Virus record (IMG/VR): IMGVR_UViG_3300042568_001401 | Coordinates: 1 to 48,724 of that record | Length of the DNA: 48,724 bases | Reading direction: 5' to 3' (one strand) | DNA from: a virus | In this document: in pieces, positions 3,938 to 47,123 of the stretch | Layout: each line of letters starts with the position of its first letter | Numbering within the stretch: the stretch's first letter is position 1 | Position numbers and translations under genes: made by a program | The notes under the pieces: model-generated | Database searches by the model: none | What the model was told of the DNA's origin: nothing | Seen by the model: the letters and a program-made list of their open reading frames with translations, nothing else

Positions 3938-4528
3938 TTATTTCTTCACATACTGTGGTATCAGTTTAGCCAGCCGTTTTTTAGCACCAGCGGCTGGTTG
4001 AGTGTTATTGCTAATAGGATTGGCTGGTGGTGCAGCAGTGGGCGCGGATGCGGGTGTTTCGGCAGGTTTGGCCACAGGCGTTTCGGCAGGTTTTGTGACT
4101 GGTGTATTGGTTTGTGCAGCCTGCATCTGAGCTATTATACTGGCAGGAGGAGTTAGGCTTTCTGGATTATCCGGAACCCCATAGTAGCTCTTCAATGCGA
4201 AAATCACTGATTTTTGTTGAGAAACATAACCGCGTATCTTGGTCATGTTAATGCTTAGAGCTTCGTAACCTTTTTCATCCAGTGCAAAAAATACTGGTTG
4301 TAATCCACTGTCTTTGATTTTTTTCATTTGTTCCTGAAAGTTGGATTCCGTAACGATTTGCCACCGCATACCGTCCAGTTGTAGTGGTGGGATAGCAGGC
4401 AGATCAATGGGTTTTCTGTCAACCGGAGCAACTTGAACTTGAACTTTGCGACTAAAACAACTACTTAGCAGCAACAGGTTTAGGCTGAGCAAGCAGGTCA
4501 GGACAAAGTGAATTGGTGATTTTGCCAT
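3938..4528 (-). CDS. Outer-membrane lipoprotein, o-spanin candidate
   Basis: 196 aa. It begins with a lipoprotein signal (hydrophobic stretch then LLLLSSC, Cys24). The body has no recognised domain; the C-terminal third is a Pro/Ala/Thr-rich linker with TPVTKPAETPVAKPAET repeats and a basic end. It starts inside the 3' end of the upstream i-spanin-like gene (68-nt overlap in another frame), the arrangement of Rz/Rz1 pairs. The function rests on that architecture and the lipobox; the protein is longer than most o-spanins. Confidence 0.7.
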   Translation of the reverse strand: MAKSPIHFVLTCLLSLNLLLLSSCFSRKVQVQVAPVDRKPIDLPAIPPLQLDGMRWQIVTESNFQEQMKKIKDSGLQPVFFALDEKGYEALSINMTKIRGYVSQQKSVIFALKSYYGVPDNPESLTPPASIIAQMQAAQTNTPVTKPAETPVAKPAETPASAPTAAPPANPISNNTQPAAGAKKRLAKLIPQYVKK

Positions 4529-4955
4529 TGCGTTCTCCTTCGGATAGTGGACTGCCAGTTAATAGTTCAAAGCACCTCAATTGTTCCAACGTACCACGGT
4601 TTACTGCTCGTTCTATGGTGTCGGTTTTTTCTACCGCAGCTTTTCCTAATGTGGTTACTGCACCAGTGGCAGGGTCAGTTCTGGGTCCCAGTTTTGTTCT
4701 CATATCATCAATACTCTGCTGGGTTCGTTGCATTGCACGATTTACTTCGCCTCTGAGCTCAGTGGCTTTTTTGATGTCTTTTTCTATCTGTTCACGTATG
4801 GCTTTTTGCTGCTCTACTTCTATTTCTTTACGAGCAATTTCAGCAGCCTGTTCTTGTAATTTTTTCTGACTGCTGCGATAATAAAGCCAAAATCCCAGCA
4901 TCATGACTGCTAGTCCAACACCCACAATAGCCATTAATTTTGCTCGCATGAACAT
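4461..4955 (-). CDS. i-spanin (Rz-like) inner-membrane protein
   Basis: 164 aa. One N-terminal transmembrane segment (about 6-26) is followed by a long charged coiled coil (about 30-90), then a C-terminal part containing LRCFELLTGSPLSEGERNG and a conserved-looking CPDLL. This is the layout of Rz-type i-spanins that span the periplasm and bind the o-spanin. The two cysteines could form disulfides. It ends in TAG within the o-spanin gene. Confidence 0.78.
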   Translation of the reverse strand: MFMRAKLMAIVGVGLAVMMLGFWLYYRSSQKKLQEQAAEIARKEIEVEQQKAIREQIEKDIKKATELRGEVNRAMQRTQQSIDDMRTKLGPRTDPATGAVTTLGKAAVEKTDTIERAVNRGTLEQLRCFELLTGSPLSEGERNGKITNSLCPDLLAQPKPVAAK

Positions 4956-9793: not shown

Positions 9794-9867
9794 TGGTGCG
9801 CCCGGTGGGACTCGAACCCACGTCCCGGGGTTTTAGAGGCCCTGCTACACCCTACAGCTTCGGGCGC
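9794..9867 (-). tRNA. tRNA-like gene with irregular anticodon arm (Arg-UCU or CUA?)
   Basis: A 7-bp acceptor stem GCGCCCG/CGGGCGC, discriminator A, encoded CCA, a 5-bp T stem with loop TTCGAGT and a D arm GCTG/TAGC are all present. The anticodon arm is abnormal: only GGG/CCC pairs enclose the 9-nt loop CCTCTAAAA. The acceptor resembles tRNA-Arg(UCU), and UCU is in the loop without U33. Placing U33 at the T instead gives CUA, an amber-reading anticodon, but with mismatched stem ends. The identity is therefore open; a decayed tRNA is possible. Confidence 0.65.
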
Positions 9868-13419: not shown

Positions 13420-13459
13420 TTGTTTTCCTTGTGTAGTGTGTGTTTTCTGCTACTCTTTT

Positions 13460-13488
13460 AGTATAGCAAATTGGGCAAGCAAATGCAA
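13460..13488 (-). promoter_or_regulatory. sigma70-like early promoter
   Basis: TTGCAT (13483-13488), 17 nt, TATACT (13460-13465), with TTGC before the -10 and AAAAGAGTAGC after it, shared with the promoters at 13757 and 46593. It is placed to drive the 75-aa gene and rIIA/rIIB. Confidence 0.7.
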
Positions 13489-13500
13489 CCAAATTGTTTA

Positions 13501-13716
13501 CTATTTGGAGATGACGTACCAGGTCAACTGTTCAGGCAGAATCTTCACCAGCTGAACAGGGTATTGCATTTTAGATCCAGGATAGCTGTTAATTTTAACT
13601 CGAATTTGCTTGGGAGTAAATTTTTCAATTACCCCAACATCGTACGAACGATATCCGTCCTGAATTAAGATAACATGATCGCCAATGGCCAGCTCTTGAT
13701 TTAAGAAATCTTTCAT
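13501..13716 (-). CDS. Small beta-rich (SH3-like) hypothetical protein
   Basis: 71 aa. ELAIGDHVILIQDG, then VGVIEKFTPKQIRVKI and QLVKI has the alternating pattern of a small SH3/KOW-like barrel. Function unknown. It is a monocistronic gene with its own promoter upstream (13757-13785); CAGGAGA precedes the start. It ends TAG followed by TAA. Confidence 0.6.
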   Translation of the reverse strand: MKDFLNQELAIGDHVILIQDGYRSYDVGVIEKFTPKQIRVKINSYPGSKMQYPVQLVKILPEQLTWYVISK

Positions 13717-13756
13717 CGAAACTGTCTCCTGTGTGCTGTGTTACTGCTACTCTTTT

Positions 13757-13785
13757 AGTATAACAGTTTGGGCAATCTGGGTCAA
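13757..13785 (-). promoter_or_regulatory. sigma70-like early promoter
   Basis: TTGACC (13780-13785), 17 nt, TATACT (13757-13762). It drives the 71-aa gene, leaving a leader with a ribosome-binding site. Confidence 0.75.
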
Positions 13786-13822
13786 CCAAATGCAAATTTA
13801 ATTGCCTTTGGTTTTCAACAGT

Positions 13823-44956: not shown

Positions 44957-45042
44957 TGGTAGTCGGAGAGGGAGTCGAACCCTCATGTCTTGCGACGTCA
45001 GTTCCTAAGACTGATGCGTATTCCTAATTTCGCCATCCGACC
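44957..45042 (-). tRNA. tRNA-Leu(UAG)
   Basis: Acceptor GGTCGGA/TCCGACT (one G-U pair), anticodon stem TCAGT/ACTGA with loop CTTAGGA (anticodon TAG), a long class II variable arm (CGTCGCAAGACAT), T arm GAGGG-TTCGACT-CCCTC, discriminator A and encoded CCA. Confidence 0.92.
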
Positions 45043-45084: not shown

Positions 45085-45243
45085 TTCTTTATTTATTTAT
45101 CTCTACCCTTGGGTGGAAGACCGAAAAAACTTGGTAGACCCTTTGAGCAAATTGCCCACTTTGAGTAATCTTTGCTAAATATATTTGTGGTTCGCGATAT
45201 GCAACTATCCAACCACTCTATAACTTCTAGGGAGTCACAGCAA

Positions 45244-45927
45244 ATGTATTTATCTGATACCGAACACCTTCTAAAATGTCAGTATTGCGGAAGGCCTGCC
45301 AAAACAAAAAACTCAAACGCTCAACACGAAATTCGATGCCATCACAATCCAAACCCATCGAAAATAAAACCTTCTTACGGGATGTTAGGAAAGAAAGGGT
45401 CTAATCAACATATCAAATCCAAACAAACTGGAGAGGAATATGTTATCGCTGAGTCAACAAGAAAAAAGATTAGTGAAGCAAACAAAAAACGCAGAATGTC
45501 TCTAGAAGCTAGAGAAAATCACAAAAAATCTATGACAAGAGCAGTTGAAAATCATCCCGAATCACATCTTTATGGAAACTCACGTAGAACAAAAAGATAT
45601 TATCATAATGATTTTATTTGTCAGGGTAAATGGGAACTTGATTTTTATAAATGGTGTTTAGAACAAAACCTCAAAGTTGAACGTGGAACTTCGTTTCCTT
45701 ACTATTGGGAAGGTCAAACTAGGAAATATTTCCCTGACTTTTATCTTCCTGAACTAAATCTTTGGATTGAAGTAAAAGGTTTTGAAACTGAACGTGATCG
45801 AGCTAAGTGGAAAGAATTTCCGCATTGTTTGAAGATTGTTAAAGAACAAGAAATCAAAGCAATTAGAACCGGAAATTTTTTATTGGTGGACCTGGTTGGG
45901 ATTGAACCAACGACCCTTCGGTTATGA
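45244..45927 (+). CDS. Homing-type endonuclease in the tRNA cluster
   Basis: 227 aa from ATG 45244 (AGGGAG upstream). N-terminal zinc finger C12-x2-C15 ... H28-x3-C32; a NUMOD3-like basic segment (TRKKISEANKKRRM); then a PD-(D/E)XK/Vsr-like nuclease core with Glu131 (GKWELDFY), Asp165 (YFPDFYLP) and E176-x-K178 (IEVKG). It interrupts a minus-strand tRNA cluster. Its last codons (LVGIEPTTLRL) are the antisense of tRNA-Met, so the real functional end is before about residue 213. AT-rich compared with its surroundings. Confidence 0.8.
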   Translation: MYLSDTEHLLKCQYCGRPAKTKNSNAQHEIRCHHNPNPSKIKPSYGMLGKKGSNQHIKSKQTGEEYVIAESTRKKISEANKKRRMSLEARENHKKSMTRAVENHPESHLYGNSRRTKRYYHNDFICQGKWELDFYKWCLEQNLKVERGTSFPYYWEGQTRKYFPDFYLPELNLWIEVKGFETERDRAKWKEFPHCLKIVKEQEIKAIRTGNFLLVDLVGIEPTTLRL

Positions 45928-45960
45928 GCCGATCGCTACTGACCACTGAGCTACAGGTCC
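45884..45960 (-). tRNA. tRNA-Met(CAU), elongator-type
   Basis: Acceptor GGACCTG/CAGGTCC, anticodon loop CTCATAA (CAT), T arm GTTGG-TTCAATC-CCAAC, A73 and encoded CCA. G1-C72 pairs, so it is not a bacterial initiator; a lysidine-modified Ile tRNA is the alternative. It overlaps the 3' end of the endonuclease gene on the opposite strand by 44 nt. Confidence 0.9.
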
Positions 45961-45974
45961 ACATTTTGCCTTTA

Positions 45975-45995
45975 ACTCCATTGAGCTACGGGTCC
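45975..45995 (-). pseudogene. 5' fragment of a second tRNA
   Basis: GGACCCGTAGCTCAATGGAG reads as the acceptor 5' strand and D arm of a tRNA similar to the adjacent tRNA-Met, but it breaks off into unrelated sequence; no anticodon or T arm follows before the intact tRNA. Confidence 0.65.
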
Positions 45996-46010
45996 ATACT
46001 CAGATTAAAA

Positions 46011-46123
46011 TCACAATGTAAACTCAACTACTTTATGGTCCCCGACTGCGAGGGTCATTTTAATGATCTAGTTCTAATTCTAGTCTTTTCAAAACAGTCT
46101 AGTTAGTTGAGTTCACACTGTGA
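46011..46123 (-). ncRNA. Structured RNA element, copy 1
   Basis: A 113-nt element closed by a 20-bp outer stem (46104-46123 with 46011-46030). Inside, minus strand 5' to 3': AGACTG, an A-rich segment, a CTAG/CTAG hairpin, ATTAAAATG, then CCCT-CGCAGTC-GGGG. GACTG (46095-46099) is complementary to CAGTC in the last loop (46044-46048), a possible 5-bp pseudoknot. Two outer-stem pairs and one inner pair are G-U on the minus strand but A-C mismatches on the plus strand, marking minus as the RNA strand. No protein frame. Confidence 0.7.
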
Positions 46124-46131
46124 AATTGTTA

Positions 46132-46234
46132 TGCAGATTAGCAAACTTCCTAACGGTGACCCTGACTGCGAGGGTTATTAATGGATGGATTATAAGTCCA
46201 ACCTTTTTAAATACAGTCTGTTTGCTAATCTGCA
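46132..46234 (-). ncRNA. Structured RNA element, copy 2
   Basis: A 103-nt element with the same order of parts as copy 1 but a different, perfect 15-bp outer stem (46220-46234 with 46132-46146). Hairpin GGTTGGA-CTTATAA-TCCATCC, then ACCCT-CGCAGTC-AGGGT; AGACTG is repeated upstream, so GACTG/CAGTC can pair again (46214-46218 with 46164-46168). It starts 9 nt after the stop of the 94-aa gene and precedes copy 1 and tRNA-Met in the same direction. Confidence 0.7.
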
Positions 46235-46243
46235 AAATCGTTG

Positions 46244-46528
46244 TTACGGCTTGTTGAAGAAGCCCCGCAGAATCTGCACCTTAACAGTGGGCTCGAACTG
46301 TTCCGCCAGCTTGTGAACAGCAGCTTCGTTGGCCTTCTTGCGGTTGTACGCATCCTTGTGGTAGGGCTTAACGGTGGCGACATCCATCACCTCACCCTGC
46401 TCGCCCACCAGCACAGCGGTGGTGCTCATGCGATTCTGTGTGACCTGCCGACCACGCTGGAAAAACGTCACTGGAGCCAGCTGCCGATAAAACTCAATAC
46501 TGCACTGCTTACCATTGATAACAACCAT
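46244..46528 (-). CDS. Small hypothetical protein
   Basis: 94 aa, basic, beta then alpha in pattern (MVVINGKQCSIEFYRQL, AAVHKLAEQFEP). It has a leader of about 60 nt with AGAGGA before the ATG and is driven by the promoter at 46593-46621. The two structured RNAs follow in its 3' region. Not recognised. Confidence 0.6.
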   Translation of the reverse strand: MVVINGKQCSIEFYRQLAPVTFFQRGRQVTQNRMSTTAVLVGEQGEVMDVATVKPYHKDAYNRKKANEAAVHKLAEQFEPTVKVQILRGFFNKP

Positions 46529-46592
46529 TTTTTTATCCTCTGTGTGTTCTGTGTTTACTGCTAAATTTTGTTCTGTTTACTGCTACTCTTTA

Positions 46593-46621
46593 AGTATAGC
46601 AAATTGCTCAACTTTAGTCAA
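46593..46621 (-). promoter_or_regulatory. sigma70-like early promoter
   Basis: TTGACT (46616-46621), 17 nt, TATACT (46593-46598), preceded by TTGC and followed by TAAAGAGTAGCAG, the same initially transcribed region as at 13460 and 13757. It should drive the 94-aa gene, both RNA elements and tRNA-Met. Confidence 0.75.
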
Positions 46622-46630
46622 ACAATTTGG

Positions 46631-47029
46631 TTACCATCTTTTATTGGGTTGTGGATGCAGGAATTGCACAATGCTGCCATCCAGATAATGCACAGTGTAA
46701 TCACTGCTAATGTAGCCGTCATTGGGGTTGGTATACCCATCACTCTCACTACATGGATGCCAGCGATCTCCACAGCATTCACAATCTTTGTTCTCTTCTA
46801 CTCCGTTGAAATAAATGCCAATATCGCATGCACGACTGTTTGCATGTTCAGCATCAAATGCTTGAATGAACACATGGCAGTCAATACTCTGTTCTTCATC
46901 CACATCATAACTACCACCACTGTTGTTTTGATCAAATGAATAAAAGCGTGGCGCCTTTTTTGCCAGTAAATCAAAAGTCAATTGATCCAGATGTTCATTT
47001 GCGGGTTTTAGGAGCTTGCTGGTAAACAT
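46631..47029 (-). CDS. Hypothetical protein abutting tRNA-Leu
   Basis: 132 aa from ATG 47029; an in-frame extension to 47080 would lie inside the tRNA. Acidic, with CECCGDRWHPC as a possible metal-binding knot and a C-terminal YTVHYLDGSIVQFLHPQ strand pair. The ATG is 6 nt after the tRNA CCA with no ribosome-binding site. Confidence 0.55.
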   Translation of the reverse strand: MFTSKLLKPANEHLDQLTFDLLAKKAPRFYSFDQNNSGGSYDVDEEQSIDCHVFIQAFDAEHANSRACDIGIYFNGVEENKDCECCGDRWHPCSESDGYTNPNDGYISSDYTVHYLDGSIVQFLHPQPNKRW

Positions 47030-47035
47030 AAATTT

Positions 47036-47123
47036 TGGTGGGGATGGAGGGGGTCGAACCCTCACGCTCATTGAGAGCAACGCGGTTTAAGCACGTTGTG
47101 GCTGCCGATTACACCACATCCCC
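47036..47123 (-). tRNA. tRNA-Leu(UAA)
   Basis: Acceptor GGGGATG/CATCCCC, anticodon stem ACGTG/CGCGT with loop CTTAAAC (anticodon TAA), a long variable arm, T arm GAGGG-TTCGACC-CCCTC, A73 and encoded CCA. Confidence 0.92.

Follow-up and report, generated by a model that had tools for sequence, protein, structure and literature searches.

In bacteriophage T4, the RNA genes rnaC (species 1) and rnaD (species 2), which are 139 and 119 nt long, lie 6 nt apart on the same strand within a tRNA cluster that also includes the homing endonuclease gene segB. According to the available text of a 2010 review, the roles of both RNAs were unknown and the characterisation of any small trans-acting RNA of T4 was still lacking at that time (PMC3014915). 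The accessible parts of a 2022 study describe RNAC and RNAD, with Northern blot validation, as late RNAs of unknown function (PMC9697503), and those of a 2025 study report that lines of a T4-like phage evolved on one host shared a mutation of the rnaD region (PMC12685909). GOLLD and ROOL are non-coding RNAs of phages and prophages, also of unknown function, that are often encoded near tRNA islands; pseudoknots have been predicted for ROOL, and many GOLLD RNAs exceed 800 nt (PMC12286853, available portion). T4-like cyanophages contain the structured RNAs manA, commonly found in potential 5' UTRs, and wcaG, which appears to regulate exopolysaccharide or high-light genes (PMC2864571, available portion).

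Here we describe two elements, W1 and W2, on a 48.7-kb virus record, which was analysed over its whole length of 48,724 nt and is called the window. With lengths of 113 and 103 nt and a spacing of 8 nt, they are much shorter than GOLLD and ROOL, the latter being some 600 nt long. ToxI, the RNA of type III toxin-antitoxin systems, likewise consists of repeated pseudoknotted RNAs adjoining a small gene, but its unit is about 36 nt, compared to 103-113 nt for W1 and W2, and no toxin family was recognised beside the pair when the adjacent 94-aa ORF was compared with Pfam, NCBIfam, PADLOC and, by fold search, the PDB. The likeness to rnaC and rnaD lies in the adjacent RNA pair inside a phage tRNA cluster, and an endonuclease ORF is present among the tRNA genes, like SegB in T4. 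However, the folds of the T4 RNAs differ, lacking a long closing helix P1, and our core model R1 matched neither the T4 locus (E up to 5) nor the T4 genome (E up to 1). By this model and by fold, W1 and W2 are judged to be unrelated to rnaC and rnaD. The 3' part of rnaC appeared tRNA-like by eye; it scored 17.5 bits with the tRNA-Sec model, far below the cutoff. Furthermore, the T4 RNAs are late according to the accessible text of the 2022 study (PMC9697503), whereas the promoter-like sites found here are of the sigma-70 type.

Architecture and genomic setting of the two elements

Judged by its RIIA, RIIB and clamp-loader genes, which are of the T4 kind, the phage is T4-like. For one of its proteins, the best-covering isolate relative was Synechococcus phage BUCT-ZZ01 (29.7% identity), and the 27 records matching this protein included 11 Pseudomonas phages and 7 Sinorhizobium phages. 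In the minus direction, the locus comprises a promoter-like site, tRNA-Leu (TAA), a DUF7296 ORF, a second promoter-like site, the 94-aa ORF, W2, W1, a tRNA-like 5' part, tRNA-Met and then tRNA-Leu (TAG):

47036-47123, minus strand: tRNA-Leu (TAA), upstream of the pair
start overlapping tRNA-Leu (TAA), minus strand: DUF7296 ORF, 149 aa as called
46593-46621, minus strand: promoter-like site TTGACT-17-TATACT, upstream of the 94-aa ORF
46244-46528, minus strand: 94-aa ORF, ending 9 nt before W2
46132-46234, minus strand: predicted RNA element W2, which precedes W1 in the minus direction
46234-46220 / 46146-46132, minus strand: P1 of W2, 15 of 15 pairs, all Watson-Crick
from 46219, minus strand: AGACTG of W2
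46203-46183, minus strand: P2 of W2
46175-46159, minus strand: P3 of W2, loop CGCAGTC
46011-46123, minus strand: predicted RNA element W1, second of the pair in the minus direction
46123-46104 / 46030-46011, minus strand: P1 of W1, 20 of 20 pairs, two of them G-U
from 46100, minus strand: AGACTG of W1
46085-46065, minus strand: P2 of W1
46054-46040, minus strand: P3 of W1, loop CGCAGTC
45884-45960, minus strand: tRNA-Met (CAT), downstream of the pair
45172-45927, plus strand: endonuclease ORF (phrog_15137, E 9.9e-22), between tRNA-Met and tRNA-Leu (TAG)
44957-45042, minus strand: tRNA-Leu (TAG), downstream of the pair

The original prediction, made from the sequence of this stretch, had given exactly these boundaries for both elements and had correctly placed them between the small gene and tRNA-Met. 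Also the parts that it had named as shared (AGACTG, the A-rich strand, P2, ATTAA and the P3 loop CGCAGTC) were present in both elements, in the order P1 - AGACUG - A-rich strand - P2 - AUUAA - P3 - P1'. In both elements P3 reads CCCT-CGCAGTC-RGGG, and its loop CGCAGUC is complementary to the GACUG strand inside P1, which makes a pseudoknot possible. W1 and W2 are paralogous structured elements. A tRNA-like reading of P3, which has the size of a T-arm, was dropped by eye because the loop sequence was unfit and a CCA end was lacking.

For the 94-aa ORF, the only Pfam match was APS_kinase, below the cutoff (E 0.02), and no NCBIfam or PADLOC family was found. An AlphaFold model of the protein, based on a two-row alignment, reached a pLDDT of 82.3, and the best PDB match of the fold search had E 0.12, above the threshold of 0.001. 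The promoter-like site upstream of this ORF agrees with the consensus at 10 of 12 positions and has a TG before the second hexamer; because the scan returned six promoter-like sites in total versus 5.5 expected, its weight lies in its quality and place. It could drive transcription of the ORF, W2, W1 and tRNA-Met. Between the small gene and tRNA-Met, two promoter-like sites with 9 of 12 matches were found on the same strand, both overlapping W1, and the scan revealed no terminator-like hairpin in the stretch from the pair to tRNA-Met. The promoter-like stretch 46574-46637 has 78%-identical copies at 13441-13504 and 13732-13789, and is perhaps a shared early promoter.

Two further observations concern the tRNA genes. 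Between W1 and tRNA-Met, the stretch 45968-45997 (minus strand) resembles by eye the 5' half of a tRNA, with acceptor and D arm, and is perhaps a relic of recombination within the tRNA cluster. At 9794-9867 (minus strand) lies a tRNA with a CUA anticodon, called Pyl by ARAGORN. TAG stops end 6 of the 52 ATG-started minus-strand ORFs of at least 80 aa, and ORFs read through TAG contain at most three in-frame TAGs. TAG is not generally reassigned in this phage, and the tRNA is possibly an amber suppressor.

Conserved place, conserved pairing and strand

An exact DNA pattern scan revealed one independent homologue, located at 2172-2277 of a 15.9-kb contig (L017; stretch L015). The core is shared and the P3 loop is the same, CAUAAA replaces CAUUAA, and the P2 sequence differs. 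The homologue lies between tRNA-Leu and tRNA-Met (the latter downstream, at 2542-2615), and directly upstream a 96-aa ORF that is 49% identical to the 94-aa ORF ends at position 2168, so that the gap between gene stop and RNA is 3 nt, compared to 9 nt for W2. Another protein shared by both phages shows 56% identity. With identities of 49% and 56% and tRNA-Met downstream in both cases, the element thus kept its position during the divergence of the phages. A model built from W1 and W2 alone, as had been proposed, recovered the homologue with 37.1 bits (E 2.5e-6 in 240 kb), a score that is inflated because the contig had been picked by an exact DNA pattern; the next best match in the 12 sources had 11.7 bits. 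Upstream of its two tRNA-Leu genes, L017 contains the promoter-like sites TTGACA-18-TATACT and TTGACA-17-TAGAAT (six promoter-like sites versus 3.2 expected), and a terminator-like hairpin follows tRNA-Met (two overlapping terminator-like hairpins versus 1.7 expected).

Directly after the homologue, in the place occupied by W1 in the window, L017 contains a second RNA-like region (2283-2415), whose interior differs and whose outer stem (UUUCAGACUGGCU...AGUCAGUCUGAAA) comprises 13 bp. Its fold has a z score of -2.76 (1 of 200 shuffles as stable), and it did not match the R1 core model.

Because P1 could not be aligned, it was compared arm by arm. The unrelated outer stems of W1 and W2 had been predicted to pair, and they do so at 20 of 20 and 15 of 15 positions, with arms that are specific for each element: the P1 helix score with the element's own arm was 20 for W1, 15 for W2 and 11 for the homologue, versus 5-8 for cross-element pairings. 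Shuffled 3' arms reached the observed score in 0 of 2000 cases for W1, 0 of 2000 for W2 and 83 of 2000 for the homologue. The prediction implied that outer stems in related contigs should covary as well, and the homologue indeed has a third, unrelated outer stem, which pairs at 15 of 17 positions and is followed by two inner pairs. Hence, the outer stems stay paired though their sequence changes, in three elements from two phages.

The core was aligned in four rows, i.e. W1, a one-base strain variant of W1, W2 and the homologue. In this alignment, 96.9% of the 64 cells were paired, and 5 of the 16 pairs changed on both sides, all five of them in P2. Sliding the partners destroyed the pairing signal. 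Of 500 column shuffles, none reached the observed share of paired cells, 5 reached the number of two-sided pairs, and 136 that of further pair types. The two-sided count in P2 leans on the alignment, because in the drawn register W2 and the homologue have one broken P2 pair each, and shifting the register by one improves the pairing of P2 in W2. Little variation is seen in P3 and the pseudoknot, where all changes are one-sided (U-A/U-G and U-G/C-G), so that both are plausible on the basis of complementarity. For the pseudoknot, which had been proposed for W1 and W2, the complementarity of GACTG and CAGTC was found in both elements and extends to the homologue; the two strands are identical in all of them, and the only change that bears on the pairing is one-sided, from U-G to C-G at the sixth pair.

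The minus-strand folds were far more stable than shuffled sequences, with z scores of -6.73 for W1 and -5.61 for W2 (0 of 200 shuffles as stable in each case). The homologue was less striking (z -2.64, 3 of 200 shuffles as stable). On the plus strand, the z scores were -3.89 for W1 and -6.02 for W2, again with 0 of 200 shuffles as stable in each case. The G-U pairs from which the minus strand had been deduced are correct for W1, two in P1 and one in P3. However, only W1 folded better on the minus strand, by 8.7 kcal/mol, whereas W2 favoured the plus strand by 4.7 kcal/mol (-40.0 versus -35.3 kcal/mol), on which its P3 extends outward, an extension absent on the minus strand. The homologue favoured the antisense strand by 1.8 kcal/mol (-38.3 versus -36.5 kcal/mol), and the strand argument is therefore weaker than originally put. 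Two pairs hold across the elements only on the minus strand. One is pair six of the pseudoknot, which is C-G in the homologue and U-G in both window elements; the other is the final pair of P3, which is U-G in W1 and U-A in W2 and the homologue. The conserved unpaired stretches are A-rich on the minus strand. Because the gene, the promoter-like site and the tRNAs all run in the minus direction, the minus strand is likelier, and from the pair evidence together with this direction we judge it to be very probably the functional one.

Known RNA families and distribution

At the gathering cutoff, the Rfam 15 covariance models matched the window at four tRNAs only, in line with the original prediction, which gave no confident match of the pair to a known class. 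Lowering the threshold to E 10 (4227 families, run with no positive control) gave a snoRNA match over W1 (13 bits, E 7.6) and a second one outside the pair (E 1.8), both regarded as chance. The families named as the first to exclude, manA (RF01745) and wcaG (RF01761), did not match at E up to 10 in the same search, which lacked a positive control, and neither at the cutoff nor at E up to 10 was there an Rfam match of W1 or W2 to ribozyme families, GOLLD or ROOL. The homologous locus gave three chance matches (E 2.9-9.1). A literature search of titles and abstract openings, in which subscription journals were largely uncovered, found no description of these elements.

IMG/VR was scanned with five DNA patterns, which would miss relatives whose loop or strand has changed, and with two protein scans for the small gene. 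Each of four pattern scans returned three strain copies that are 99.8-99.9% identical to the window over 2.3-4.0 kb. One of these scans (6 stretches) additionally returned L002, L003 and L006, which contain a different RNA (see below). The scan that found the homologue (8 stretches) included, besides L015, four others that were rejected on reading their folds. A scan of 38 stretches comprised L015 and 34 others, which were dismissed with R1 scores of at most 20.9 bits, mostly from 16 pattern bases, and a scan of 9 stretches comprised L015 and five others, which were rejected on reading and did not match R1 at E up to 1. The fifth scan listed at least 120 stretches. When 110 distinct pattern matches were filtered by stem, W1 and its variant (score 20) and W2 (15) stood above all others; the filter could miss true relatives, because the homologue, with a score of only 9, ranked behind four unrelated matches (10-11) and tied with four more. 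The protein scans for the small gene returned the same four contigs only, and a further protein scan returned 17 loci of the wider clade.

Applied to 22 records, R1 gave nine matches above 73 bits in five of them (the window, the three strain copies and G001) and at most 12.1 bits in the other 17, an absence that means little because many of these records are fragments. Those weak matches that were inspected looked like coding or unstructured sequence. The 48.7-kb record contained no further copy (third R1 match 5.4 bits), and none of 12 isolate records matched at E up to 1, under stricter filters and with no positive control among the records. One pattern scan of genome contigs yielded three stretches, judged unrelated by fold reading alone; one of these (L224) has a strong P3-like hairpin. 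A DNA similarity search of 50,697 phage records returned 13 at E 0.2-9, all dismissed as chance because each spans 10-18% of the query. Among the best 60 hits of a home-made descriptor scan of 470 kb of loci (duplicates included) were the known units and noise, and the homologue was absent. In summary, three distinct elements and a one-base variant were found, from two phage lineages, and with IMG/VR finds from this phage (the window and three strain copies) and the homologue's contig, the family looks narrow.

The different structured intergenic RNA belongs to another phage group and was found at 14050-14170 of L002, at 4479-4598 (minus strand) of L003, and in L006, which is identical to L002 over 8.4 kb. 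It has a stem CCCUAUG/CAUAGGG with a nested inner stem GACUGCG/CGCAGUC, and a downstream hairpin has a loop that is able to pair with CUGGAAUC (L002) or GUCGAAUC (L003), both sides of the pairing having changed. The two RNAs are 85% identical over 121 nt, compared to 68-80% for ten other matching stretches of both contigs. L002 and L003 had no Rfam gathering match, and the records of all three had no R1 match at E up to 10.

Possible roles of W1 and W2

W1, W2 and the homologue are best read as a new, narrow family of small structured phage RNAs. In view of T4 rnaC and rnaD and of the other tRNA-island RNAs (GOLLD and ROOL), as described in the sources cited above, we assign a probability of roughly 55% to W1 and W2 being trans-acting small RNAs released from the transcript of the phage tRNA operon. 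Minus-strand transcription, processing to discrete species and action in trans are inferred. A polycistronic transcript would contain the small gene, both RNAs and tRNA-Met, and W1 and W2, about 100-113 nt long, would be freed either by RNase III, cutting at the long outer stems, or by the nucleases of neighbouring tRNA maturation. In the fold of each RNA, P1 would close a three-way junction, and base pairs between the P3 loop (GCAGUC) and the GACUGU strand just inside P1 would lock it. P1 would need only to be helical, and the conserved core, which includes the AUUAA linker and the unpaired A-rich strand, may be the recognition site for a protein or RNA partner with which the RNAs would act in trans during infection. 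The homologue, with its third outer stem and the same neighbours, speaks for this reading; the mixed strand result of the folding, the small number of elements, the merely one-sided changes in P3 and the pseudoknot, the less exceptional P1 and fold of the homologue, its inflated model score, and the late class of the T4 RNAs as opposed to sigma-70-type sites were counted against it.

The main rival is that W1 and W2 are parts of the mRNA without a separate job, acting in cis by protecting the 3' end of the small-gene mRNA and/or by marking cleavage from the tRNA-Met precursor. In both phages the RNA precedes tRNA-Met and is separated by 3-9 nt from the stop codon of the same gene, long helices would suit RNase III or the blocking of exonucleases, and from the gene to tRNA-Met the only promoter-like sites are the two that overlap W1. 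However, a plain stabiliser needs no invariant unpaired core and loop, and it is the core that is conserved while the stem sequence is free; we regard this reading as unlikely, but worth keeping in mind. A junction with a pseudoknot is a usual architecture of aptamers, and riboswitches are known in tandem copies, which would fit a riboswitch-like or put-like element (aptamer or antiterminator) that regulates transcription of the downstream tRNA. Yet no protein gene follows directly downstream on the same strand, the terminator-like hairpin is missing, and no riboswitch family was among the Rfam matches at E up to 10, so that such a role appears improbable. Slightly more doubtful still is an undescribed class of self-cleaving ribozymes by which the operon transcript would be processed: a compact pseudoknotted junction with an invariant core between units that need processing would be in keeping with it, but Rfam gave no ribozyme match and the sequence suggests no cleavage site.

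Two other readings abandon the minus-strand RNA. An antisense or regulatory RNA of the plus strand, opposite the gene and the tRNA, would agree with the better plus-strand folds of W2 and the homologue and with the longer P3 of W2, but W1 loses its 8.7 kcal/mol, two pairs (pair six of the pseudoknot and the final one of P3) no longer hold throughout, and the flanking gene and three tRNAs within about 1.1 kb are all on the minus strand; there is little to recommend it. An element acting at the DNA level, such as a mobile hairpin or a recombination or origin site, could be invoked because an endonuclease ORF and a tRNA fragment are located fairly near the inverted repeats. Mobile-element terminal repeats usually keep their sequence, whereas the arms of W1 and W2 have diverged, and the element occupies the same place in two divergent phages, with no further copy in the record, which makes this reading highly improbable.

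A variant of the small-RNA reading is that W1 and W2 also pair with each other, because GACUGU and GCAGUC are identical in both paralogues while the stems have fully diverged. The resulting RNA-RNA dimer or ring would be a small counterpart of the RNA-only assemblies of GOLLD and ROOL, but the fold within one molecule explains the same data, and we consider such assembly a long shot.

According to the accessible parts of the literature, non-coding RNAs of phage tRNA clusters, e.g. the T4 RNAs C and D, still lack a known role (PMC3014915, PMC9697503, PMC12685909). The general weight of the present elements is limited because the family looks narrow in the collections searched. Nevertheless, the small size of this compact, duplicated RNA, which combines an invariant core with a free outer stem and a putative pseudoknot, makes it accessible to probing, mutation and structure determination, and its conserved link to one small gene is a concrete starting point.
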